The notes beneath the pieces were generated by a model that worked only from the letters and a program-made list of their open reading frames with translations, did not search any database and was not told where the DNA came from. A DNA stretch of 32,382 nucleotides, taken from NCBI GenBank assembly GCA_026996295.1, contig JALWLL010000109.1, forward strand, positions 1 to 32,382, given 5' to 3'. The DNA comes from Sulfurimonas sp. GTDB taxonomy: Bacteria > Campylobacterota > Campylobacteria > Campylobacterales > Sulfurimonadaceae. Positions within the stretch are counted from its first letter, which is position 1. Each line of letters opens with the position of its first letter. Made by a program: the position numbers and the translations under genes. Of the stretch, positions 11,680 to 24,287 are shown piece after piece.

Positions 11680-11687
11680 TCTTTTAC
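11665..11687. terminator. Bidirectional hairpin between yigZ and mshG
   Basis: GTAAAAGAT (11665-11673) pairs perfectly with ATCTTTTAC (11679-11687) around a 5-base loop. The 9-bp stem contains both stop codons of these convergent genes. It would stall or end transcription from either side and marks the end of the long msh operon. Confidence 0.5.
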
Positions 11688-12931
11688 TGTCTACCTTGAA
11701 CGGCATTCCCCATATCCCACATAGGCAAGAAAATACCAAGAGCAAGTAAAATAACCATAGAAGCAATGATTAAGAGCATAATAGGCTCAATCGCTTCAGA
11801 GAGACCGTCAATAATAGCATCAAACTTCATTTTATAGTATTCAGCAACTTTCCCTACCATAGTATCGAGTGTACCACTATCCTCACCTGCAGAAACCATT
11901 TGGATGATCATATTTTCAAAAAGTTCTGTGTCTTGAAGACCTTTGTTTAAAGTATCACCCTTTTCAACGGCGTTTCTAACTGTGATAAGTTTGGCTTTGA
12001 GCGGTAAGTTGTCTATCATAGTGGTTGCTGTCTCTAAAGCTTCTGCTATAGGAATACCGGCACGTAGCAGCTCTGAGAAAACAAGGGTGAAGCGACTGAG
12101 TGTAGCATATTTAATGATATTGTTTATAAGATAGGTTTTAAGTAAAAACTGATGCCATCCATACCGTATGTGTCGATGGTTGTTGATAAGGTACTTAAAG
12201 AATAGAAAAGCGGCTACCAAGATCAGCAAAACATAAGGACCATAATTGTTAAATAGATGCTCAAGCGTCAATAAAATTTGTGTAGGCAGCGGAAGTTCTG
12301 CATTTAACTCTTCAAAGATTGTTTTAAATTGAGGTACAACATAAGAGATAAGCACCGTAAATGCTATAGCCATCGCTATCATAACATTTCTAGGGTATGC
12401 CATAGCTTTTTTAAACTTAATAATATTAGCGCGTATCTCTTCAAGCATATTAGCAAGTGAATAAAGAGCTTCATCCAGATTACCGGTTTTTTCCCCTAGT
12501 TGCACCATAGCAATAGTTAGGTTACCAAGTTCAAATCTGAAATTTTCCATGGATGAAGAGAATGAATGCCCTGAGTTGATGTCATCTGCAAGTTTTGAGA
12601 AAACAAACTTTAAATTTTGATCCTGTGTCGAGTTTGCAATTTCGTTAAGTGAATCATGAATCGATATACCGGCATTAGTCATAACGGCGAGTTGTCTGAT
12701 AGCTGCTATAAGAGCATCAGGCTTGATTTTTCTTTTTTTGATATTTTGTAAAAAATTTGTTTTAAACCTTTTGAGTTGGGCATCTAAGGGCTCTTGCGCT
12801 TCTACAACTTTGATAATTATGCCAGAATGTTTGAGTTTTGCATGATCGTTTGCTTCTTTTTTGTTGTTGGCATAGAGAGGAAACTCTTCCTTTTTCCCTT
12901 TTGTTATTACTGTTGCTATGTAGTACTTCAT
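11684..12931 (-). CDS. mshG: MshG/PilC/GspF-type inner-membrane platform protein
   Basis: The 415-residue protein is a type II secretion F family member: a cytoplasmic N region, two copies of the T2SSF domain (about 80-200 and 280-405; RQLAVMTNAGISIHDSL and FSELLRAGIPIAEALE are the paired signatures), and three membrane segments (around 180-200, 230-250 and 385-408). It forms the base on which the ATPase turns pilin assembly. It overlaps mshE by 4 bases (ATGA), as in operons where these two act together. It is the last gene of the run and ends at a hairpin. The msh name follows from gene order; on sequence alone it could be called PilC or GspF. Confidence 0.88.
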   Translation of the reverse strand: MKYYIATVITKGKKEEFPLYANNKKEANDHAKLKHSGIIIKVVEAQEPLDAQLKRFKTNFLQNIKKRKIKPDALIAAIRQLAVMTNAGISIHDSLNEIANSTQDQNLKFVFSKLADDINSGHSFSSSMENFRFELGNLTIAMVQLGEKTGNLDEALYSLANMLEEIRANIIKFKKAMAYPRNVMIAMAIAFTVLISYVVPQFKTIFEELNAELPLPTQILLTLEHLFNNYGPYVLLILVAAFLFFKYLINNHRHIRYGWHQFLLKTYLINNIIKYATLSRFTLVFSELLRAGIPIAEALETATTMIDNLPLKAKLITVRNAVEKGDTLNKGLQDTELFENMIIQMVSAGEDSGTLDTMVGKVAEYYKMKFDAIIDGLSEAIEPIMLLIIASMVILLALGIFLPMWDMGNAVQGRQ

Positions 12932-14664
12932 GCTTTGGCTACCTTTAATATCTCCTGAATACTAGTAACACCATCGAGTGCTTTTTGAATACCGTTTTCA
13001 AAAATACCGATAAAACCATCTTCTTGTGCTTGTGCAAGTAACGCCTCTTTGGAAGCACCTTTGGCAATAAGTGATGATAGTTTTTCTGTTATATTTAAAA
13101 CTTCACATATCATTTCACGACCCATAAAACCAGTTTCATTACACTCTTTACACCCCTTACCTGTGTAAAACTTGGCATCTTCTGGAATATATTTTTTCAA
13201 GTCATCCAAGGTAGACAAGGGGACATTTTCCTCTACTTTACAGGATTGACATATTTTTCTAATAAGTCTTTGTGCCTGTATAGCAACAAGAGCTCCACTG
13301 ATAAGGTAGTTTTCTATTCCCATATCGACCATTCTTGGAATGGCACTGATAGAGTCATTGGTATGCAGGGTAGAGATCACCAGGTGACCGGTAAGTGCAG
13401 CTTTAATCGCAATTTCCAAGGTTTCTTGGTCACGAATCTCACCGATCATGATTTTATCAGGATCTTGCCTTAAAATAGAACGGAGAGCCTCTGCAAATCC
13501 TAGACCAACCTTAGGGTTTATCTGTACTTGTTGGATAAGATTCATTCGATACTCGACAGGATCTTCAACTGTGATAACCTTATCTTCTACATTTCTAAGT
13601 TCATTAAGGGCACCATAAAGGGTAGTTGTTTTACCACTACCTGTAGGTCCTGTAACCAAGATAATGCCGTGAGGTGCATGAAGCCCTTTGAGTAGTTTGT
13701 TGTAACTCATGGAGTCCATACCGGCATCTTCAAGTTTTACCAGCGCTTTTTGTTTGTCCAAGATACGCATAACAATAGACTCACCATAAAGTATCGGAAG
13801 TGTTGATATACGGAAGTCAAAATCTTTAGAACCCACTGTAGTTGAAAAACGACCATCCTGAGGTTTTCTTTTCTCGGCAATATCTAAGTTTGCAAGAAGT
13901 TTGAGTCTTGATGCAAGGGGAGGGTATATCCCTTTTTCAAAGATAAATATTTCAGTAAGTTTGCCATCAACTCTGGCACGAACAACACAGTTCTTTTCAG
14001 TTGGTTCTATGTGGATATCACTCGCACGACCATTGATACAAGCTTTTAAAATAACATCAATCAAAAGTAAGATCGAAGATGCTTCTTGCTGCTCCTCTAT
14101 ACTGCTGATGGAGTTGAGCTCGTCTTTAATCTTTTTTACCAAACCTTTCACACTGTCTTTAAGTTCAACCTTAAACAGGTAGGTTTGAATCTGTTTTTTG
14201 GTAGCTATGGCAACTTTAATTGGTTTTCTTGGAAATAGTCTCTGAATAGCTTCTTGCGCAACGATATCTATGGGGTCGTTAAAGGCTACAGTGATACTGA
14301 GATCATCTTCTGAAATGGGAAGTGCATTATGTCTTTTGAGTTGAGCAAGGGGTACTTTTTCTGTTAAATTATAGTCCATATCGATGGAGTCTAGATCAAT
14401 ATAAAGCAGGTCCAATTCTTTGGCAAGTTTTTTGAGAACTGCCTGTTCAGGTATATAATCGTAGTTATCGATTATAGAAAGTTCATATACACCCTGTCTG
14501 ATCTGATCAACTATATAACGGATAAGCCTATCCATCGTCATAAATCCAGAGAGGGTTATATCGCGCAGTATTAAATCTGGACTAATACCTTTTGCAAGCA
14601 GTCTATCTACCTGACTCTGCATTATAGAACCGTTGGCCAGTAAATCCTTTGTTATTCTATCCAC
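12928..14664 (-). CDS. mshE: MshE/PilB/GspE-type assembly ATPase
   Basis: This is a hexameric assembly ATPase of the GspE/PilB family. With GTG at 14664 (AGGGG a few bases upstream) it has 578 residues; a TTG at 14679 would overlap the preceding gene. The Walker A GPTGSGKT is at about 339-346, then the Asp box VEDPVEYR, a Walker B with IMIGEIRD, and the His box GHLVISTLHT. Two Cys pairs (CQSC and CKEC, about 472-508) form the zinc site of extension ATPases, so it is not a PilT. The N domain starts RITKDLLANGSIM; I could not match the c-di-GMP-binding MshEN motif. It powers pilin polymerisation at the inner membrane with MshG. Confidence 0.9.
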   Translation of the reverse strand: MDRITKDLLANGSIMQSQVDRLLAKGISPDLILRDITLSGFMTMDRLIRYIVDQIRQGVYELSIIDNYDYIPEQAVLKKLAKELDLLYIDLDSIDMDYNLTEKVPLAQLKRHNALPISEDDLSITVAFNDPIDIVAQEAIQRLFPRKPIKVAIATKKQIQTYLFKVELKDSVKGLVKKIKDELNSISSIEEQQEASSILLLIDVILKACINGRASDIHIEPTEKNCVVRARVDGKLTEIFIFEKGIYPPLASRLKLLANLDIAEKRKPQDGRFSTTVGSKDFDFRISTLPILYGESIVMRILDKQKALVKLEDAGMDSMSYNKLLKGLHAPHGIILVTGPTGSGKTTTLYGALNELRNVEDKVITVEDPVEYRMNLIQQVQINPKVGLGFAEALRSILRQDPDKIMIGEIRDQETLEIAIKAALTGHLVISTLHTNDSISAIPRMVDMGIENYLISGALVAIQAQRLIRKICQSCKVEENVPLSTLDDLKKYIPEDAKFYTGKGCKECNETGFMGREMICEVLNITEKLSSLIAKGASKEALLAQAQEDGFIGIFENGIQKALDGVTSIQEILKVAKA

Positions 14665-14672
14665 AGTTACCC

Positions 14673-15215
14673 CTACCAATAAACATGTCGTTTAATAGAT
14701 ATATTATCATAATATTCTTCAATAATTATTTTTCTAACACTTTTTTCTTCTATAATATATAATTTATACTTTAAACGGGGATCTTGTTTGTCTGTAAATA
14801 TATAGAAATCTCTTTTTTTGTGTTTTCCAAGTTCTGCATAGAGATCAAAAACCTTTGAAAGTATAAAATTTGTTGAGGGCAAGTTTAAAGAAGAGATATC
14901 ATAATCATCAAGCATAGCATGGTAGAGAAGCTTTTTTTGCATTAAGATTACAGAAAAGTATGCAGCATTAGCGCGTGCTTCTTTAGAATAACGTAGTATT
15001 GAGATCGGAATAGCCAATCTGTCAATAAAATCAGCATGAAGACAAGAGAGTGCATATAGGGAAATATACTCCTCATCTTTTTTATTTTTAGTAAAATTTT
15101 TAAAGCCAAGTTTACAGGCTTTTTCAAAATTTTTATTTTGATACAGTGTAAACATATCCTGTTTTGCATTCGCATAGAGTGACAAGCTAAGTAGTAGAGC
15201 GAGTATTAATTTCAT
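14673..15215 (-). CDS. Exported protein of unknown function inserted in the msh operon
   Basis: I do not recognise this 180-residue product. It begins with a short signal peptide (about residues 1-17, ending ANA) and then a mostly helical, Lys-, Tyr- and Leu-rich body; FTLYQNKNFEKACKLGFKNF and EEYISLYALSCLHAD look like tetratricopeptide or Sel1-type helical repeats. The C-terminal 35 residues (KYKLYIIEEKSV, then IIIEEYYDNISIKRH) look like beta strands. It overlaps mshN by 4 bases (ATGA) and lies 8 bases before mshE, so it is fully inside the operon. In the Vibrio MSHA locus, mshN is followed directly by mshE. A periplasmic accessory role in the pilus system is inference. Confidence 0.7.
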   Translation of the reverse strand: MKLILALLLSLSLYANAKQDMFTLYQNKNFEKACKLGFKNFTKNKKDEEYISLYALSCLHADFIDRLAIPISILRYSKEARANAAYFSVILMQKKLLYHAMLDDYDISSLNLPSTNFILSKVFDLYAELGKHKKRDFYIFTDKQDPRLKYKLYIIEEKSVRKIIIEEYYDNISIKRHVYW

Positions 15216-16042
15216 TTGAACTTTCCTGATAGAATCTCTTTAAGAAGTAATTTGGCTTGATTTGAATCAGAATGATTTATATATTGTTGCAAAGTTTGTA
15301 TAGCTTTGGCCTTTTGGTTGAGTTTGACTAAGGATTTTGAAAAAATGATCCAACTCGCTTCAATATTGTTGTTGATTTCATTTGTGATCAAAGCATAGTT
15401 ATAGGCTTGCTTATATTCACCCAGTTCATAATACTTTTTTGCAACAAACAAGCTTAGTGCAGGGTTGTTATTTTTTTTGAATCGTTTAATAACGTATTCT
15501 ATATCTTCGTAGGTGTTTTGTTTTTTTATGGTGATACTATTTGTTTCATGAGTGAGCTGTGTTTGAGGCTTCTGTGTTATTGTGGTTGCTGTTTGCTTCT
15601 TTGGAACTTGAACAGTGTTTTTTGGAACAGTTTTTTGAGTGTTTGTGGTTTGTCTGAGAGGCTTGCTTTGCATTGTTTCCATAAAAGCCATTGAAGGTTC
15701 TAAAATATTTTTTTCATGAGATGGAGTCTCATTGCGAGGTGGCAGTTGTATTGCTTCTTCAACCCTCGTAGGCGTTACTATCTCTTGTGAAATATCTTTA
15801 CTTTGCACAACAGGGGTTTCTTTTTTAAGGCTTTCTTGCACTGCATTACTTATGTTATTTTCTTGTTTTTTTGTAATAGTGCTTGGTATAGTAGTATCTA
15901 ATATATTGAGTTTTTTCAAATCAACAAATAAATAGATTGCAATTATTATAATAAGTAAAGCAATAAAAATACTTATAACAGGCAAAAAAGATTTTATTTT
16001 ATATGTAAGCCATTTTTTTTCAAGATCATAAATATTAAGCAT
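15212..16042 (-). CDS. mshN: MshN-like membrane-anchored TPR protein
   Basis: I chose ATG 16042 (276 residues): it overlaps the mshM stop by 8 bases and has AGGAC upstream; an ATG at 16075 would cause a 41-base overlap. After a short cytoplasmic N end, one membrane segment spans about 20-42, then a long Lys/Thr/Gln-rich periplasmic linker (about 50-180) and C-terminal tetratricopeptide-like repeats (NPALSLFVAKKYYELGEYK, then EASWIIFSKSLVKLNQKAKAI). This is the layout of MshN in the Vibrio MSHA operon, and its place after mshM agrees. It probably links the inner-membrane complex to the secretin. The sequence is divergent, so the name rests on layout and position. Confidence 0.7.
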   Translation of the reverse strand: MLNIYDLEKKWLTYKIKSFLPVISIFIALLIIIIAIYLFVDLKKLNILDTTIPSTITKKQENNISNAVQESLKKETPVVQSKDISQEIVTPTRVEEAIQLPPRNETPSHEKNILEPSMAFMETMQSKPLRQTTNTQKTVPKNTVQVPKKQTATTITQKPQTQLTHETNSITIKKQNTYEDIEYVIKRFKKNNNPALSLFVAKKYYELGEYKQAYNYALITNEINNNIEASWIIFSKSLVKLNQKAKAIQTLQQYINHSDSNQAKLLLKEILSGKFK

Positions 16043-16844
16043 CAATAAGTCCTGTGTGAATAGCAGCCATTTCAATGATTTTATTTGATATTTGGCGGGT
16101 ATTTATTTTAGAAGGGTTATTTTCACTATACCATGTATATATATCAAAAACGGTGTAGAGGAGCTTGTTTGTGTCTCTGTAGTTGCCTTTTGTGATTTTG
16201 TGAATAAGTTGCACAGATTTATTGTTGAAGATATTAGCTCCATCAAAACAGTTTGCTTTCATAAGTTTTTTTTGTATGTACATTTTAAGTTCTACGGCAG
16301 AAGCATTTTCAAGTTCTATGGTTTCCCATATTCTTGTTTGGAAGTGCTCTTTTGCAATGAGGTCTTCTCTCTCTGTTTTGTGAAGTGTTATAACAAATTT
16401 TATTTTTCTCGTATCTGCAAGGAGTCTGATTTTCTCCATTTGCTCACTCGAGTAAAGTTGAGCCTCATCTAAAAGTACTAAAGGGATGTCATACAAATTG
16501 TTCTCATTGAGGATAACTAAAAATTGTGTAAAGTTCAGCTCTCCTATGTATTTTATATTAAAAAGATCTTTTGATAATGTTTTGAAAAATTCACTTTCAT
16601 CTAAGATGGGAGTTTGATAAAGATGTACCTGTTGCGAGGAAGATAGGTCTTGGTAAAGTTTTGAGAGAAACATACTTTTACCAGTACCCGGTTTTCCGTA
16701 AAGAAGTACCATTTTGAGAGGCTTCTTTACTGAATTTTTTAAAGATTGGTATATTGTAGAGACTCTGTCTAACTGAACATAGTCTTTTGCATTGACTGCA
16801 TCGAGAAAAACATCTTTAGAGCTTGAAAAAATATTAGATTCCAT
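16035..16844 (-). CDS. mshM: MshM/ExeA-type AAA ATPase
   Basis: The 269-residue ATPase has Walker A GKPGTGKS at 50-57 and Walker B VLLDEAQ at about 123-129, the DEAQ form typical of ExeA/GspA/MshM, and a sensor-like VITLHKTERED. GspA/ExeA proteins help insert the secretin through the cell wall; MshM is the MSHA counterpart. Unlike ExeA, there is no C-terminal membrane or peptidoglycan-binding domain; the partner part may be MshN next to it. The start ATG overlaps the mshL stop by 11 bases and the gene overlaps mshN by 8, which fits tight translational coupling. Confidence 0.85.
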   Translation of the reverse strand: MESNIFSSSKDVFLDAVNAKDYVQLDRVSTIYQSLKNSVKKPLKMVLLYGKPGTGKSMFLSKLYQDLSSSQQVHLYQTPILDESEFFKTLSKDLFNIKYIGELNFTQFLVILNENNLYDIPLVLLDEAQLYSSEQMEKIRLLADTRKIKFVITLHKTEREDLIAKEHFQTRIWETIELENASAVELKMYIQKKLMKANCFDGANIFNNKSVQLIHKITKGNYRDTNKLLYTVFDIYTWYSENNPSKINTRQISNKIIEMAAIHTGLIDA

Positions 16845-18447
16845 TTTCCTCTACTATCTCTACAGAAGTATTGTTCTCTTTAGAATCAGATAAGTTGTTT
16901 ATTCTTACAGCATCATTGGTAATACCTGTATAACCAAGATCAGCCAATGAAAAATTATTTGCATCTTTACGAATAATATGCGGCTCAATAATAATAATAA
17001 GCTCCTCTACCTGTTTTACTTTTTCCTCATATTTAAAAAGGTAGCTTAGACCGGGAATATCACCCAAGATAGGAACTTTATTTGATTCGTTTGTACTTCT
17101 TGTGTTAATAAGACCACCAAGAATAATTCTATTGCCGTCTTTTATAGTAACCACAGAAGAGAGCTGGCGACGATTTAAATCAGGTGGCATCTTTCTGTCT
17201 GTAGATGTGTTTTGTGCCATATCTTCCCTTGTTTCAGAGATTGAAGGGTTGATCTTAAGAGTGATTCTGTCATTATTTGAAATTTCAGGTGTGATATCTA
17301 GTAGTACACCGGCAAATACAGATTGGATAAGATCATTTTGCGTGGTAGCAGCAACGCCACCCCCTGTCCCTTGCTGGTTTGTGGAGCGTTGTATTTTATA
17401 AAAATATTCTGTACCAACGGTAATGAGTGCCGGTTGATTGTTAAGTGTAAGTACTTTAGGATTTGAAATGGCATTGACATCCCCTTGTGTCTGTAAAAAT
17501 TTTATAACTTCATTGAGTGTCCCACCTGCTTCGATAGTCAAATAGTTACTTACATCATAGGATGTTCCATCGTCGAGTGATTTTGTTCCTGAACCATTGT
17601 TCAATTTTAATGTAACGTTTTGTAAAGCGTAAAGCTGTTTCCAGTCAACACCTGTACTTTTCGCTTCTGACATCGTAACTGTTAAAAGCTGAACATCAAT
17701 CAAGACTTGTAATTGAACCTTATTCTGAAGTTTTTTAAGATATGACTCAAGCCTTTGTATCTGTCTAGAAGTAGCTGTTACAGTAATAAGTCCTGCATTT
17801 TTGTTGATGATAGGAAGATCTGCTTTATATGCGTCATACTCTCTGTTTAAAATATTTTGTAGCTCCAAATCCAATTCTTCCCAGAATTTTACTTCATCAT
17901 TGCTTTCAATTTTAATACCGGATTCCGTAGTGGAGTTTTTACCTATACCCTGTTGAGCACCCATAGCACCCGATCTTCCCCCGGAACTTCCATATTGTCC
18001 GCCACCTGTACCACTTACGCCACCCATCATGTTTTGCTGATTGCTGGATGAACTCAGTGTGATGTCTGTTGTGCCACTCCCTTTTCTTTGAGATAAAATA
18101 TAGTCTATATTAAATACTTTCGTTAAGAGATAGGAGATTTTTAAAATATTATTCTCTAGAGTATAGGAGAGGTTGTTCTCTTTTAAGATAATATCCAAGA
18201 CCTCATCAATGGTTAAGTTTCTAAGGTAGGTTTTATTGAGTTTTTTATTTAAAATTTTTTCTGTTTGGGCATCAGATACAAGAACACTAAATTCACATTC
18301 ATCACTGAGCTGATCAATGAAGTCTACGATTTTTGTATCTTTTGTTGAACTGATACTAAAGAGTTCGTAAGAACAATCGGCAAAGCTATTGTTAAATAAC
18401 AGAAGCGTTAATAGCGTTGAATAAATTGATGTTTTAATGAGTTTCAT
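16834..18447 (-). CDS. mshL: MshL/PilQ/GspD-type outer-membrane secretin
   Basis: The 537-residue secretin has a signal peptide (about 1-23), an STN-like domain (about 40-105), a Gly/Ser-rich loop (about 141-170), an N1-like domain (ITVTATSRQIQRLESYLKK), and the C-terminal secretin core (LQVLIDVQLLTV, AISNPKVLTLNNQPALITVG, VFAGVLLDITPEIS, then GGLINTR and VPILGDIPGLSYLFK). It would form the outer-membrane pore for the pilus. Cys25 follows the signal, but the residues before it (FAD) are not a lipobox. The acidic C end (VEIVEENGI) overlaps the mshM start. The core is unmistakable; MshL rather than PilQ is from synteny. Confidence 0.92.
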   Translation of the reverse strand: MKLIKTSIYSTLLTLLLFNNSFADCSYELFSISSTKDTKIVDFIDQLSDECEFSVLVSDAQTEKILNKKLNKTYLRNLTIDEVLDIILKENNLSYTLENNILKISYLLTKVFNIDYILSQRKGSGTTDITLSSSSNQQNMMGGVSGTGGGQYGSSGGRSGAMGAQQGIGKNSTTESGIKIESNDEVKFWEELDLELQNILNREYDAYKADLPIINKNAGLITVTATSRQIQRLESYLKKLQNKVQLQVLIDVQLLTVTMSEAKSTGVDWKQLYALQNVTLKLNNGSGTKSLDDGTSYDVSNYLTIEAGGTLNEVIKFLQTQGDVNAISNPKVLTLNNQPALITVGTEYFYKIQRSTNQQGTGGGVAATTQNDLIQSVFAGVLLDITPEISNNDRITLKINPSISETREDMAQNTSTDRKMPPDLNRRQLSSVVTIKDGNRIILGGLINTRSTNESNKVPILGDIPGLSYLFKYEEKVKQVEELIIIIEPHIIRKDANNFSLADLGYTGITNDAVRINNLSDSKENNTSVEIVEENGI

Positions 18448-18456
18448 TGTTAGATC

Positions 18457-18948
18457 CTACTTACTTTTAAATTTTAAATTTGTATTTTTAGTGTGCGTTG
18501 AAAGCACAATTTTTTTACTTTTTCTAGCTAAAACTATAGAGGTCTTTGTAATGCTGAGCAGTTTATAGTTTTTAACCTTATCATTGAGTTTATACCATTT
18601 TCCATTAATGAGAGCCGAGTTATTCATGATAGCATCAAGCGTAAACCCTTTTTTGGATCTGGAAGCTTTTTTTCGATATACCTTGCGGTGTGTTGATGAA
18701 GAGCTGATACGTACAGGAGCTCTTTTTTGTTGAACAATATTTTTGCCGTCAAGTTCATCTTCTTTTTTTGGTCGATTTTTTTCTAAGAAAATGAAGGGAT
18801 CGGTTAAAATGGCAATGTTATAATTGCTGACACCCTCTCTTGACGGCTTAATAGCATTTACCTGCTCATCCACCCATGAAAGCTCGTTTGAGCTAAGAGT
18901 AGTTAGAGAAGTGGCCAGGATCAGGGCTGATAGTATATATTTTTTCAT
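18457..18948 (-). CDS. mshK: MshK/PilP-like periplasmic protein
   Basis: Using ATG 18948, which shares one base with the mshJ stop (TAATG), the product has 163 residues; an upstream ATG at 18966 would only add six residues and overlap more. A signal peptide (about 1-20, MKKYILSALILATS) is followed by a Lys/Arg-rich linker and a small C-terminal beta domain (ALINGKWYKLNDKVKNYK, then LLSITKTSIVLARKSKKI) that resembles the homology region of GspC/PilP and MshK, with the 'aiinGkwyk.Gd.v..y.v..I....v.L' pattern. It would bridge the inner-membrane MshIJ pair and the secretin. Sequence is weakly conserved; the position between mshJ and mshL is the main support. Confidence 0.7.
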   Translation of the reverse strand: MKKYILSALILATSLTTLSSNELSWVDEQVNAIKPSREGVSNYNIAILTDPFIFLEKNRPKKEDELDGKNIVQQKRAPVRISSSSTHRKVYRKKASRSKKGFTLDAIMNNSALINGKWYKLNDKVKNYKLLSITKTSIVLARKSKKIVLSTHTKNTNLKFKSK

Positions 18949-19580
18949 TAGTATGTTATCCCCCAAACGGATATGTTAAGATCCGAGTTTAGATGTTCCT
19001 GTGCTTTTATTTGCAACGTATGTATATCCACAACCAGTTCGCTTTGCTCAAGAGAATTGATGAACTTGAGTGTATTTTTATAACTCCCCGTCGTTTTTAG
19101 CGTAATATCAAGTACATGACCAAACGACTGATGCTTACGTGCATATTCATTGGTAAAGTCTATGATCTTCACATTGTACTTTTTGGCATTACTTGAGATT
19201 GAGTGAAGGTATTCTCCCCATGCTCTTTCATCATAGATAAGAGATGAAATAGCTTCAATTTTTGTTTTTATATATTCATTGTTATCCTTGAGAACAAGAA
19301 GTTCTTTTTTTGCTTTTTCGATATCTGCGTCCAGATTATAGATTTTATTCTCCGGATTTAACTGTAAAAAACTTTTGTCTGAATCAAGTTTTTTTTGTAT
19401 TTGAGCTATTTGTTGCTTTTTTTCCATAAAATCATTTTCAGCGCTATCCCAAAATAGTAGGTAGGAAAAAGCAAAAATAACACCAACGATCATTATATAA
19501 GAAAGAATAGTGTCTTTTTGACTTTTTTCTTTAAATGCCAGATCAATCTTATGCAAATAATCTTCAATATTCATCTTCAT
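18948..19580 (-). CDS. mshJ: MshJ/PilO-like inner-membrane protein
   Basis: The 210-residue protein has a cytoplasmic N end, one membrane segment at about 26-44 (SYIMIVGVIFAFSYLLFW), a coiled coil (about 50-105, ending KKELLVLKDNN), and a C-terminal ferredoxin-like domain (HVLDITLKTTGSYKNTLKFI, then LEQSELVVDIHTLQIK). This is the PilO/MshJ architecture, which pairs with PilN/MshI to form the periplasmic alignment complex. It overlaps mshI by 4 bases and mshK by 1. Fold and placement agree, so I regard the call as sound. Confidence 0.8.
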   Translation of the reverse strand: MKMNIEDYLHKIDLAFKEKSQKDTILSYIMIVGVIFAFSYLLFWDSAENDFMEKKQQIAQIQKKLDSDKSFLQLNPENKIYNLDADIEKAKKELLVLKDNNEYIKTKIEAISSLIYDERAWGEYLHSISSNAKKYNVKIIDFTNEYARKHQSFGHVLDITLKTTGSYKNTLKFINSLEQSELVVDIHTLQIKAQEHLNSDLNISVWGITY

Positions 19581-21118
19581 AATAAATTTACCTTTAATTC
19601 ACTAAAGTATTTTTTCTCATCCTCATCGAAGTAGATTTTATTGAGTGAAAAGTGGAATGTACCTTCATGTTTACTCGTCAGATATTCTACAAGGTTGGTG
19701 ATTTTTTTATCATTGGAAGAGACAAGATCAAAATAGAAAGTTTTATTTTTTTCATCTTGTGCATATTTTAAAGATTCTACTCTAACATTATATTTATTAA
19801 GATCTTTTGTAAAAAGAACCAATAATTTGGCTTTCATAGGGTAATTTACTTTAACGTCATGAATCTTAATAAGAGTATTCTTTTTATCATTGTAGTTTTC
19901 TTGCTCTTTGTTAAGCAGAGTAAGCATTTTTTCTTTGTCTGCTTCTTTATTTTTTATTGTAGCTTCTCGAGTGATTTTGATATTATGCACCTCTGCATAC
20001 TCTTGTTGGAGTAGATCGTATTGATAAGATTGTGCAAAAGTAAGTGACCAGTATGTAACCGGATAAAAAAAGGCTAAAGCAAATGAAGCGGCAGTTAAAA
20101 TAATAAGTTTACCACTGGCCCTTTTTGTAAACTTGGGTGGACGGAAATAGGTAGTAAAGTTACAGTTATATTTATCTCCCTGTGGCAGCATTGTATATAG
20201 ATGCATAAGTGAATGTATTTGATCGACATGCACGTCACTGCTTTCAAAGCCGTAGTCAAACTCAAAATTACTACTTTTTATGCTGAGCTCAACTTCTGCA
20301 AGTTCATCCAGCTTTGTGATAGAGGGGATCTGCAGACCTATGTAGACATGATTGATCTTTTCAATTTCAAAAGCTCTTTTGATATAGGTAAGGATATCAT
20401 TAACATTCGCAAATATCTCTTTGAAAAGACGAATAAAGAACTCTTTGAAATCACTGTTAGTTTCTTTGAGGTTTGCAGTGCTTAAAAAATCTATAAACTC
20501 CTCATAGTCTACTCTCTCTCCATAGAGCTCGCAAAAGCGTTCATGCATTTGGATAAAAGAGTATTTAATGGATTTTGTATAGATATATTCTTTTTCATTA
20601 TATACAGTTACAAAGGCATCATCTTCTTGAAAATATATAAAACAATGGACACCACCTGTATCTATGATATCTTTGGCATACAAAGATTTAAGAAGCAAAG
20701 GAGTAGGAATAATAACATCTAAGTATTTGATTTTTTCAATTGTCTTAGAGTATGTTTCATCAATAATAAGTGGATCTACTACAAAAACGTGGAAGTTTCT
20801 GTTATCCTCATCTAAATTATTAAATGTTTCTATATACTGTATCTGGTATGTTATAGCTTGGTCAAGTGCAAGATCATCATATACTTTACTGCTTATTGCA
20901 TCATGTAGATCTTCTTCCGGTATATTCTTTGTGATGGAGATCTGAGTGTTTATAAAGCCTTGCGTATTTAAGTATGAGATTGCAAACTGATCTTTTTGAT
21001 ATTCTGGAGAATTGATCTCATTTAAGAAGCTTGATACGCTGCGAATATATGTATTGTTGTAAGGATCAATTGAAAGTATACTTGCAAAAGAGTGTTTTTC
21101 TTCTTCTTCTTTACTCAT
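19577..21118 (-). CDS. mshI: MshI-like protein: fused PilM-like cytoplasmic and PilN-like membrane parts
   Basis: The 513-residue protein joins two modules. Residues 10-310 look like the actin-like (ASKHA) fold of PilM/GspL: SILSIDPYNNTY, FHVFVVDPLIIDE, DTGGVHCFIYFQEDD, INHVYIGLQIPS. A membrane segment follows at about 337-360 (LIILTAASFALAFFYP), then a coiled coil (365-415) and a PilN-like C-terminal ferredoxin-like domain (NVRVESLKYAQDEKNKTFYF). Typical type IV pilus loci encode PilM and PilN separately; MshI and GspL combine them. It would recruit the ATPase and pair with MshJ. The ATG lies 10 bases after the csd4 stop, without a separate promoter. Confidence 0.78.
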   Translation of the reverse strand: MSKEEEEKHSFASILSIDPYNNTYIRSVSSFLNEINSPEYQKDQFAISYLNTQGFINTQISITKNIPEEDLHDAISSKVYDDLALDQAITYQIQYIETFNNLDEDNRNFHVFVVDPLIIDETYSKTIEKIKYLDVIIPTPLLLKSLYAKDIIDTGGVHCFIYFQEDDAFVTVYNEKEYIYTKSIKYSFIQMHERFCELYGERVDYEEFIDFLSTANLKETNSDFKEFFIRLFKEIFANVNDILTYIKRAFEIEKINHVYIGLQIPSITKLDELAEVELSIKSSNFEFDYGFESSDVHVDQIHSLMHLYTMLPQGDKYNCNFTTYFRPPKFTKRASGKLIILTAASFALAFFYPVTYWSLTFAQSYQYDLLQQEYAEVHNIKITREATIKNKEADKEKMLTLLNKEQENYNDKKNTLIKIHDVKVNYPMKAKLLVLFTKDLNKYNVRVESLKYAQDEKNKTFYFDLVSSNDKKITNLVEYLTSKHEGTFHFSLNKIYFDEDEKKYFSELKVNLL

Positions 21119-21128
21119 TAACTACTAC

Positions 21129-22433
21129 CTATTTAAAATGTACCATAGACATAGAACAGAATTTATCATCTTTATAAAATTCAACCCTATATACCTTATG
21201 GCTTCTATCGACAGAAAAAAGTTTGTCTATTTCACTACGATTTATGTTTATTCCCGCTTCATTTATTTGTTTTACTGTTTTATAACCAATAACATTTACA
21301 CGAAAATCCCCGTTTTTCACTATATTGAAATCGTCCTTTACAAAAAAATCTGAAGTTTCTTTGACAGAAAATAGTTTTCCGTCAATTTTGACATCAAATT
21401 TTTGAGGACACCTCTTTGCAATTTCAAAATACTGAGGTTTTAATGTTGTTACTTTTTTGTTCCCCACATAAACAACATAATTACCATTAATTTTCTTTAC
21501 ACTTCCCAATGGGTTGGAAAAATTAAATCTATTGTCAGTAGATTTTATCGGAATGTAGCTTAAATTTTTTTTGATATTATCAAAGTTTAATAAAATTTTG
21601 TTATTTATCTCTAAAGTACCATAATCTTTGAGGATTTTATTGATTTTCTTTGCACTTAATTCAAAATTTCTTTGAAATGTGATATTCATAATCTTCATAA
21701 ACTCTTCAATTGCAAGAAGCTGATAGAATACTTTTTTGGATAATGAGGGTAGATGTTTACTACTTTCAATTGCAAAAGCAGGCTTGTTGTTTGTAACGGC
21801 AAAGTATGTCAGTGAATGTCTCATTGCTTCATCATGAAACTTTGTTTTTGTATTTTTTACATCAAAAACATGGTGTTCTTTGAGAAGTTTTTTATTGATA
21901 TTTTTTTTAACTTGCAAAGCTATGTCATTTAAATTTCCAAAAGCCTGTTCTTCGTTGAGTTTAGACTGGTCAATGACGCAAGTTTGTCCCCATGAGTTGG
22001 GGTTAAAGATATTACCACGGTTCTTTTTTCTGTAAAATCCATTTCCATCATGCAGGTTGAGAACCAGGGAGACTTTTTTTGAAAGAATGATCTGTTTTAT
22101 TTTTTGTACGATCTCTTTATCTTTATCATTGCTCTTGATGGTAGAGAATTTTCTATTCATATCCCCATGAATACCTCTTTTGTTTGCCTGAATACTGGCT
22201 TTATTGAGGTTTGGAACGATCCAAAGGTTTTGTGAAGTTATAGTGTAGTGTGTAGCAAGTATGGAAGCGGCAAAATAACCACCGGGTTCATCCCCGTGTA
22301 TCCCCCCTATCACCAGCAGTGTTGTATTGGCGTCAGGGTTTTCTTTCTTTATAAGTTGAATATCTTCAGAAGCAAAAAGATTCACAGCTATGAAAAAAAT
22401 AAAAAACTTGTATAATGCGGCAGTTTTATACAT
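21129..22433 (-). CDS. csd4: Csd4/Pgp1-like D,L-carboxypeptidase (M14) for cell shape
   Basis: At 434 residues this matches Helicobacter Csd4 and Campylobacter Pgp1, periplasmic enzymes that trim peptidoglycan tripeptides to dipeptides and set helical shape. A signal peptide spans 1-22. The M14 zinc ligands are His46 and Glu49 (GGIHGDEPGG) and His128 (LNLHDG); Arg86 and DMNRKF (91-96) hold substrate, and the catalytic Glu is in AFAIESS (223). In H. pylori Csd4 the first ligand is Gln46, so this enzyme has the ordinary His. The C-terminal ~190 residues form two further beta domains, as in Csd4. It follows csd6 by one base. Confidence 0.87.
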   Translation of the reverse strand: MYKTAALYKFFIFFIAVNLFASEDIQLIKKENPDANTTLLVIGGIHGDEPGGYFAASILATHYTITSQNLWIVPNLNKASIQANKRGIHGDMNRKFSTIKSNDKDKEIVQKIKQIILSKKVSLVLNLHDGNGFYRKKNRGNIFNPNSWGQTCVIDQSKLNEEQAFGNLNDIALQVKKNINKKLLKEHHVFDVKNTKTKFHDEAMRHSLTYFAVTNNKPAFAIESSKHLPSLSKKVFYQLLAIEEFMKIMNITFQRNFELSAKKINKILKDYGTLEINNKILLNFDNIKKNLSYIPIKSTDNRFNFSNPLGSVKKINGNYVVYVGNKKVTTLKPQYFEIAKRCPQKFDVKIDGKLFSVKETSDFFVKDDFNIVKNGDFRVNVIGYKTVKQINEAGININRSEIDKLFSVDRSHKVYRVEFYKDDKFCSMSMVHFK

Positions 22434-22434
22434 A

Positions 22435-23412
22435 TTATTTTTCTGTGAATATCTTCATATTATTTGTATCATCAACTCTCACCATCAGTACTTTTTCCCC
22501 TGTAAATGTATAGCTTTTGGAACTATAGAACTCTTTAAAGGTTATTTGGAAGATATTGTCGGTATCAGGGTAGGGGATGATAACAATATCGTTAAAAATA
22601 ATACTTTTAGACTCGTTTTTTTGAAAAATTCTATGTTTATACTTTTTGAATCTTTCAAAGTTCATGCCATCATATCGTTTAAAATCATCACTGTAAAATG
22701 CAAGATAGCCTTGAATATCGTTGTAGATCCAGGAAAATCTCCATTTGTATAACTGGGCGAGCAGGGATGCTAAAACTTTTTTATCTATTTTTTTGGCAAC
22801 TTCTGAGGGGTTGATTAAAAGTAGTGTTTTTTTATAGTTGATCTCTTTATCAAGGCAGACTATATTTGTATTGTTGATAGCAATACACCCTTTGGTAAAT
22901 TCATCCCTTTCTTGGTTTATCGGAAGTCCGTGAATCCATATGCCGTGGCCATTTTTGTTTTTGTATTTATCATAGGTATTTGGATAGGATGTTACAAAAG
23001 CCAAGGGGCCGTAAAATGGGTCCACTTTTGAGAGTTTTTTTGTCAGTCTGTAAATACCGTGCGGGGTTTTAAGATCTCCCTCTTTAAGCTTGTCGCCTTT
23101 GAATTTTCCTGTGTATGCATCATAGCTTTGTTGAAATGTATAATTATTATCTTTAGATTTTTTAAAAAGTTTTAAAGAAGAGCTTTCTTTGTTACATGTT
23201 AAAATAGATAAATTTTGTTCAACAAATCCAAATGTGGTGTCTTTGTCCTTTAGGTACTCTTGCCAATACTCTACACTTGCAAGTTCAAGATCCAATTTCT
23301 TTTGTATCTCTTTGATACCGTTATGCCTGTATTCATTCAGTAGAGTATTTGCTTCAAGTGACAGTGATAATAAGAGAAAAATATTCAGTATAAAAAAAGC
23401 TTTTTTGAACAC
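22435..23412 (-). CDS. csd6: Csd6/Pgp2-like L,D-carboxypeptidase (YkuD fold) with NTF2 domain
   Basis: I chose GTG 23412, which shares one base with the era stop (TAGTG) and follows AGGA. This gives 325 residues with a signal peptide (MFKKAFFILNIFLLLSLSLEA) and puts the YkuD nucleophile at Cys176 and the His at 161 (IWIHGLP to FTKGCIAI); I recall Cys176 in H. pylori Csd6 as well. A start at 23457 would add 15 charged residues before the signal. The C-terminal ~110 residues are an NTF2-like domain. Csd6/Pgp2 trims tetrapeptides to tripeptides, the substrate for Csd4. It sits after era, as HP0518 does in H. pylori. Confidence 0.87.
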   Translation of the reverse strand: MFKKAFFILNIFLLLSLSLEANTLLNEYRHNGIKEIQKKLDLELASVEYWQEYLKDKDTTFGFVEQNLSILTCNKESSSLKLFKKSKDNNYTFQQSYDAYTGKFKGDKLKEGDLKTPHGIYRLTKKLSKVDPFYGPLAFVTSYPNTYDKYKNKNGHGIWIHGLPINQERDEFTKGCIAINNTNIVCLDKEINYKKTLLLINPSEVAKKIDKKVLASLLAQLYKWRFSWIYNDIQGYLAFYSDDFKRYDGMNFERFKKYKHRIFQKNESKSIIFNDIVIIPYPDTDNIFQITFKEFYSSKSYTFTGEKVLMVRVDDTNNMKIFTEK

Positions 23413-24287
23413 TATTGGTATCCTATCTCTTTTAGAAACGATTTGTCTTTGGACCATCCCTTCTTAACGCTTACCTGCAAGTTTAAGTAAGCTTTTTTTC
23501 CACTGAGCAGTTCGATTTTCTCTCGTGCATATTTACCGATCCTCTTGATCGCTTCACCGTTTTTTCCGATGATGATCCCTTTTTGAGATTCTTTTTCAAT
23601 GATGATGGTTGCATATATTTTGTCTATATTGTTCTCTTCTTCTATCTTGTCTATAAGCACATCAGATTCATATGGAATTTCATCACTGATATTTTCAAAG
23701 ATACCTTCTCGAATAAATCCTGCATAAATATCCCTTACAAGCTCACTTGTGAGATCATCTGGGTCATATAAAAAAGGTGATTGGGGAAGTAATTTGGCAA
23801 TGGTGTCTAAAAGATCTTTGTGACCGACCTTTTTTGGTATTGCAATTGGTATAAGTGCTTCAAAGTGTTCTGCATATTGGTTGTACTGGGCTATTTTTTT
23901 AAAAAGCTTTTCCTGGGAAACCTGATCAATTTTACTCAGAGCTATGATATGCTTTACTTTGTTGTTATTGAGTTGAAGAAATTTTTCATAGATTTTGACA
24001 TCATCGGTTACAGGAGCCAAATAAACTATAAGATCACAATCTCCCATAGCTTTGAGTGCTTCATCAAGCATGAATTGATTTAAAATTTTCTCTTTTTCAT
24101 GCAGACCCGGAGTATCTACAAAAATTATCTGTGCATCACCGTGCATTACGATAGCATTTGAGCGTTTTCGTGTTGCATTGGCTTTTTGAGAGACCATGGC
24201 TATCTTCTCACCAAGTAGAGAGTTCATAAGTGTGCTTTTTCCAGCATTTGGACGACCGATGAGAGATACAAAACCAGCTTTTGTCAT
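23412..24287 (-). CDS. era: GTPase Era, 16S rRNA/30S assembly factor
   Basis: The 291-residue protein has G1 GRPNAGKST at 11-19, the switch region with TRKRSNAI, G3 DTPGLHE at 58-64, G4 SKID, and a C-terminal KH domain with GIIIGKNGEAIKRIG. Era binds the 3' end of 16S rRNA during small-subunit maturation. NATRKRSNAI replaces the more usual 'PQTTR..i.Gi'. It sits between hslU (19-base gap) and csd6 (1-base overlap), the Campylobacterota arrangement. Confidence 0.96.
   Translation of the reverse strand: MTKAGFVSLIGRPNAGKSTLMNSLLGEKIAMVSQKANATRKRSNAIVMHGDAQIIFVDTPGLHEKEKILNQFMLDEALKAMGDCDLIVYLAPVTDDVKIYEKFLQLNNNKVKHIIALSKIDQVSQEKLFKKIAQYNQYAEHFEALIPIAIPKKVGHKDLLDTIAKLLPQSPFLYDPDDLTSELVRDIYAGFIREGIFENISDEIPYESDVLIDKIEEENNIDKIYATIIIEKESQKGIIIGKNGEAIKRIGKYAREKIELLSGKKAYLNLQVSVKKGWSKDKSFLKEIGYQ

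Follow-up and report, generated by a model that had tools for sequence, protein, structure and literature searches.

Organization of the msh operon

The stretch of DNA analysed here, referred to as the window, is a whole contig of 32,382 nucleotides (C109) from a draft genome of Sulfurimonas sp. comprising 119 contigs and 2.10 Mb and rated 100% complete. It holds a run of nine genes in the order mshI-J-K-L-M-N-(180-amino acid (aa) gene)-E-G, which appears to encode the assembly machine of a type IV pilus of the mannose-sensitive haemagglutinin (MSHA) type, also termed MSH. Inspection of the open reading frames (ORFs) found all nine intact on the minus strand, running from position 21118 to 11684 with intergenic gaps of -41 to +10 nt (Table 1). 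An original prediction for this DNA had described the canonical order mshI-J-K-L-M-N-E-G with secretin, ExeA-type ATPase, extension ATPase with its Cys pairs and platform protein all apparently intact; order and intactness held up, but the 180-aa gene between mshN and mshE had been overlooked.

Table 1. Coordinates of the msh genes in the window and of two upstream neighbours (TPR, tetratricopeptide repeat).
Gene	Position	Strand	Assignment
mshI	19577..21118	-	513 aa; PilM-like actin fold, membrane helix, coiled coil and PilN-like domain
mshJ	18948..19580	-	PilO-like; PF04350, E 2e-5
mshK	18457..18966	-	Small secretin-associated protein; CtsR counterpart
mshL	16834..18447	-	MSH-type secretin; CtsD counterpart
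mshM	16035..16844	-	ExeA-type ATPase, Walker A GKPGTGKS; AAA_22, E 2e-9; CtsP counterpart
mshN	15212..16075	-	Membrane-anchored TPR protein (TPR-type Pfam match); CtsX counterpart
180-aa gene	14673..15215	-	Between mshN and mshE; predicted exported/periplasmic
mshE	12928..14679	-	Extension ATPase; PF05157 (MshEN) and PF00437 (T2SSE); CtsE counterpart
mshG	11684..12931	-	Platform protein, T2SSF; PF00482, E 4e-51; CtsF counterpart
csd4-type	21129..22433	-	M99 carboxypeptidase (cell shape); PF17033, E 2e-65; 10 nt upstream of mshI; no pilus part
csd6-like	22435..23457	-	Between era and csd4; named by analogy from position and sequence

The MSHA-type identity put forward in the original prediction is borne out by the secretin, by the domain matches and by a phylogeny of the extension ATPases. 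MshL passes the curated equivalog TIGR02519 with 273 bits against a cut-off of 250.2, and on the GspD profile it reaches 169 bits, below the cut-off of 351. Its nearest named homologue is 98% identical and comes from a record labelled Helicobacteraceae, most other close ones being labelled Sulfurimonas or Helicobacteraceae. The mshI product matches no Pfam or NCBIfam family; its AlphaFold 2 model (predicted local distance difference test, pLDDT, 87.7) has PilM as best Foldseek match (E 4e-13) and continues beyond the PilM part into a membrane helix, a coiled coil and then a PilN/GspL-like domain. A phmmer search connects MshK with the Legionella gene at the MshK position (E 8e-5), and the zinc site of MshE consists of two Cys pairs, CQSC...CKEC. 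The 180-aa gene is kept in Campylobacterota (31 sequences from the equivalent slot), and the AlphaFold 2 model of its product combines TPR-like helices with a beta sheet (pLDDT 93); a fold search gave no PDB match at E <0.1.

A plain type II secretion system (T2SS) shares with the window machine a homologous secretin, ATPase and platform, but this identification was rejected on the MshL and GspD scores, on the ATPase tree and on the occurrence of a distinct T2SS elsewhere in the genome. The latter is complete (contig C110; L009, 5540-15684), carries GspC-K-like genes with its own GspG-K, and passes the equivalog cut-offs (GspD 353 bits, GspG 133 bits), its GspD attaining just 110 bits on the MshL profile, where the cut-off is 250.2. 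In the ATPase tree, T2SS GspE sequences, the genome's own included, fall outside the MshE clade. As a separate observation, the GspE closest to that of the C110 system in the trees lies on a 24-kb Nitratiruptor plasmid (L189; support 100/100) that also bears GspG-, PDZ- and secretin-like genes, and in Campylobacterota plasmids may be a vehicle for T2SS mobility.

Pilin genes elsewhere in the genome

A PF07963 search returned nine class III pilin matches genome-wide and none in the window. As the original prediction had stated, the window holds neither a pilin, the only match in its class III signal-peptide scan being a spurious one inside a membrane protein, nor a prepilin peptidase gene. The genome search that the prediction had proposed, for class III signal peptides and PilD, recovered the nine pilin matches outside the window and one peptidase, on contig C38. 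Three tandem pilins lie on contig C13 between flgB and priA, directly upstream of priA. On contig C41, an MshC-like gene lies divergent to a group that begins with the gene for a DUF6701 (MshQ-type) protein (E 5e-9) and continues with MshD-, MshO- and MshP-like genes; as the DUF6701 ORF starts near the contig end, it may be truncated. The Aeromonas MSHA locus has the DUF6701 domain where MshQ is encoded (E 6e-99), and Aeromonas MshO is matched by the MshO-like protein of C41 (phmmer, E 3e-6); for MshD, MshP and MshC the assignment was based only on gene position, size and the presence of a signal peptide. ATPases of the PilT and PilU families are encoded on contigs C84 and C26 (448 and 428 bits, cut-off 319).

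Genome-wide searches counted exactly two secretins, two extension ATPases, two PilT-type ATPases and one prepilin peptidase. One secretin and extension ATPase pair sits in the complete T2SS on C110, and the window machine is therefore the sole candidate assembler of the C13 and C41 pilins, which it would, by elimination, assemble. The original prediction had left a choice between pilins encoded elsewhere and a machine with another cargo; the former proved correct (C13, C41) and the latter is unneeded. A cargo-less or repurposed secretion machine exporting something other than type IV pilins would suit an operon and a window that lack a pilin, but the genome contains pilins with no other assembly machine, one relative (G167, see below) has pilins beside the machine, and an absent peptidase and an unlinked mshA are general MSH traits according to Denise et al. 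(2019; PMC6668835). Another cargo was rejected because pilins without any other machine are present in the genome, and we regard it as very improbable.

Conservation of the operon in Campylobacterota

The gene order is kept in more than 30 relatives, and the arrangement is therefore no product of chance. The series hslU-era-(csd6-csd4)-mshI-J-K-L-M-N-180-E-G recurs throughout the family of the window genome, and families f3, f8, f10 and f11 have the same order without csd6-csd4, some of them without a detectable 180-aa gene or mshM. The original prediction had named, as what would speak against it, a close relationship of these genes to a plain T2SS or type IV pilus locus with its own pilins nearby and a different order in relatives; no such relationship emerged, and relatives retain the order. 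MshL exceeds its cut-off in 220 of the 298 genomes of the phylum and in none of 14 control genomes. No class III pilin was found in the 323 kb covering the machine loci of 15 relatives. On one contig of genome G167, genes for PilU, two pilins, PilT and MshO-like and MshD-like proteins adjoin mshI-J-K-L-N-E-G in divergent orientation, and homologues of the pieces on C13, C41, C84, C26 and C109 therefore adjoin one another there. The G167 pilin nearest PilU matches the third C13 pilin with 46% identity.

One to three pilins stand upstream of priA in 27 of 36 machine-bearing genomes examined, some of which, the f5 genomes included, have a strong MshL match that is yet below the curated cut-off. 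In the remaining nine, a pilin lies about 2.5 kb off priA in two and none is present in seven, all of family f2. The pilins of this position include a family (A3) with the common ending FTY...G.F.C...C, whose member in the window genome is the third C13 pilin (L010, 6348-6773). A profile was built from the globular part of the protein in 18 non-Campylobacteraceae genomes. With E-values calculated for 1000 sequences, it matches family f7 proteins at 1e-12 to 1e-20 and the C. jejuni protein Cj0683 at 4e-10, decoy pilins scoring 0.02 or worse. G167 has one match to the priA-pilin profile (E 1e-6), and A3 is present in 198 of the 298 genomes, some of which contributed to the profile. Cj0683 is required for efficient DNA uptake, its gene precedes priA, and it was found as a CtsE partner in yeast two-hybrid assays; it has been described as unique to Campylobacter (PMC10046745). 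The priA-adjacent pilin is, judged by the profile match, a homologue of Cj0683.

PilT exceeds the cut-off in 165 of the 298 genomes, the window genome included, and in no genome of genus g14, which is probably Campylobacter sensu stricto. Genomes of a further genus (g18), presumably Helicobacter, have neither MshL nor PilT, and the four examined have no pilin at priA either, a pattern that agrees with what we take to be their different DNA-uptake machine, ComB type IV secretion.

Correspondence with the Cts transformation system

The Cts apparatus of C. jejuni is usually classed as type II secretion-like. Natural transformation in this species uses the operon ctsRDPXEF and the unlinked ctsG/T/W (PMC10893306), with published lengths of 472, 202, 195 and 519 aa for ctsD, ctsP, ctsX and ctsE (PMC8308473). 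An operon in genome G102 (L123) has ORFs of 103, 470-472, 202, 195, 519 and 393 aa. Its neighbour FlgK gives a full-length match of 1306 bits to FlgK structures, which we take to be those of C. jejuni. From the ORF lengths and the FlgK match, G102 is therefore C. jejuni or very near to it. CtsD of G102 passes the MshL equivalog with 334 bits and has 147 on GspD (cut-off 351). Comparison of window and Cts proteins by phmmer paired MshL with CtsD (4e-77), MshM with CtsP (2e-18), MshN with CtsX (1e-8), MshE with CtsE (3e-122) and MshG with CtsF (1e-48), and MshK with the CtsR-like ORF of genome G097 (5e-14), so that mshK-L-M-N-E-G corresponds gene for gene, and in the same operon order, to ctsR-D-P-X-E-F. 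The original prediction had overlooked this relationship. In the ATPase tree, which included just two gammaproteobacterial MshE sequences, Campylobacterota MshE and CtsE form one clade (support 100/100) that is sister to MshE of Aeromonas and Legionella (95/84). Membership of CtsE and the window MshE in the same subfamily is thus well supported by their sequences.

The two systems also differ. Cts is without mshI, mshJ, the 180-aa gene and the MshEN N-terminus, its genome has no PilT over the cut-off and a single pilin at priA against three in the window genome, and its locus is flanked, unlike that of the window, by flgK and a 1186-aa oxidoreductase-like gene. In both genomes, homologous pilins are encoded immediately upstream of priA. 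It is likely, though not proven, that Cts is a reduced descendant or relative of the MSH machine. Another Campylobacter genome (G247; L124 and L206) has a shortened CtsP ORF of 167 aa and a priA split between two reading frames, which may point to disrupted uptake genes or to errors in sequencing.

This correspondence raises the question of whether the window encodes a dedicated competence machine, that is, a short Cts-like DNA-uptake pseudopilus with no long surface pilus and no adhesive role. Such a function would accord with the gene-by-gene match, with the Cj0683 homologue beside priA, with a ComEC gene on the contig that also carries pilins, and with a degenerate cyclic di-GMP (c-di-GMP) site in MshE (see below). 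However, the genome keeps mshI, mshJ, PilT, PilU, three tandem pilins and the MshQ and minor-pilin set, unlike C. jejuni, and this gene set looks like that of a full retractile pilus, genus g14 having no PilT over the cut-off. A machine for competence exclusively is consequently considered unlikely.

Neighbouring genes

In Sulfurimonadaceae only, the csd4-type and csd6-like genes (21129-23457) are inserted between era and mshI. The cell-shape genes may share a transcript with the pilus genes across this csd6-csd4-mshI junction.

Discussion

Taken together, these data point, with a probability that we put at roughly 0.8, to the window encoding the machine that assembles an MSHA-type type IV pilus, with the components dispersed among several loci; on this reading the pilus most likely serves DNA uptake and/or surface attachment, and Cts is probably a reduced form related to the machine. 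The original prediction had considered MSHA systems chiefly gammaproteobacterial, a view out of date since Denise et al. (2019; PMC6668835), who report MSH in Epsilonproteobacteria with mshA as a loner and without a peptidase. The mandatory genes of their MSH model are mshE, mshG, mshL and mshM together with the loner mshA; the window holds the first four and C13 has major-pilin-like genes, as determined by our own searches instead of their hidden Markov model profiles. The puzzle of an MSHA locus without pilins is accordingly an ordinary one, as unlinked pilins have already been modelled for MSH. No mention of Campylobacter occurs in the main text of that paper, and Cts is thus not discussed there; MshL and MshM are listed in the genome paper of C. 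ureolyticus (PMC3758288).

The locus resembles the MSH loci of Vibrio, Aeromonas and Shewanella in the order I-J-K-L-M-N-E-G, the MshL equivalog, the ExeA-type MshM, the TPR protein MshN, an MshQ-type DUF6701 protein and the lack of a prepilin peptidase at the locus. It differs from them in that pilins and minor pilins are at two other loci, in the extra 180-aa gene, and in a degenerate c-di-GMP motif in MshEN; it adjoins hslVU-era, whereas the Vibrio-type locus runs on into mshF-Q and mreB. In Aeromonas caviae the MSHA locus (L187; a 4.9-Mb record labelled plasmid) is seemingly interrupted by insertion-sequence-like ORFs. Alignment to the c-di-GMP-binding motif as defined previously (PMC5013675) shows the substitutions G11T, Q32G, R38L and G40L in the window MshE; the motif is intact in Aeromonas, and CtsE is without the whole N-terminal domain. 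The window MshE has, we predict, probably lost control by c-di-GMP. This motif is a regulatory trait of Vibrio MshE and lies outside the MSH definition of Denise et al. A pilus that, like that of Vibrio, is purely adhesive and takes no part in DNA uptake might be expected from the MshL equivalog, the MshQ-type protein and the MshC/D/O/P-like pilins. However, within the phylum the machine and one pilin both have a DNA-uptake system as their closest functionally studied kin, and the c-di-GMP control of the Vibrio pilus is probably lost, so that adhesion as the sole function seems doubtful.

Several observations weigh against an MSHA-type pilus related to Cts. Genomes of family f7 retain a priA pilin without MshL over the cut-off, and most f2 genomes retain the machine without such a pilin; among genomes lacking a strong MshL match, one diverged priA pilin is present in five of six from f7 and in none of four from g18. 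As f7 and f2 break the pattern, co-occurrence of machine and pilin was set aside as proof, being only partial. DUF6701 was detected in just 18 of the 298 genomes, and the Msh-type minor-pilin set appears patchy or too diverged for detection. Co-occurrence of DUF6701 with the machine was likewise judged weak evidence: a strong MshL match is seen in all 18 carriers but also in most genomes generally. Inside the Campylobacterota clade, CtsE clusters with fast-evolving f2 sequences, and a clade uniting it with the other MshE of Campylobacteraceae was rejected by the approximately unbiased (AU) test (p 0.019), a placement that could reflect long branches or a separate history. The claim of strict CtsE orthology is weakened by this rejection, for which a long-branch artefact is possible. 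In addition, regulation of MshE would differ from that in Vibrio because of the degenerate motif, and the link between pilins and machine in this genome is one that we infer.

The MSHA-type pilus allows the construction of a model in which a single PilD would mature the pilins encoded by the tandem trio of genes preceding priA. The filament could be started by the MshC/D/O/P-like minor pilins with MshQ at its tip, whereupon MshE would drive pilin addition on the MshG platform, anchored by MshI and MshG. MshI, MshJ and MshK may form an alignment complex, and MshL, with MshM and MshN and perhaps the 180-aa protein, an outer-membrane gate in which the filament would pass MshL. PilT and PilU could retract the filament, and the pilus would serve DNA uptake and/or surface attachment. 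The data show gene content, gene order and homology; assembly by the window machine, retraction and function are what we infer from these parts.

A broader scenario is somewhat favoured, in which the MSH machine is the ancestral pilus of Campylobacterota and also serves as the competence pilus, Cts is an MSH machine pared down by the loss of MshI/J, PilT and sensing of c-di-GMP, and Cj0683 is a remnant of a priA-adjacent pilin family found across most families of the phylum. A search of the open literature, with most subscription papers and supplements outside its reach, found no paper joining Cts and MSH; nor was a wide occurrence of the Cj0683 family found reported in the open literature, most subscription papers again being outside the search. 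The homology of the priA pilins to Cj0683 would contradict the claim that the latter has no homologue outside Campylobacter. The link between Cts and MSH would place DNA uptake by C. jejuni among the type IV filaments, and it makes DNA uptake a testable role of the machine, as competence would become directly testable in the non-pathogenic Sulfurimonas.

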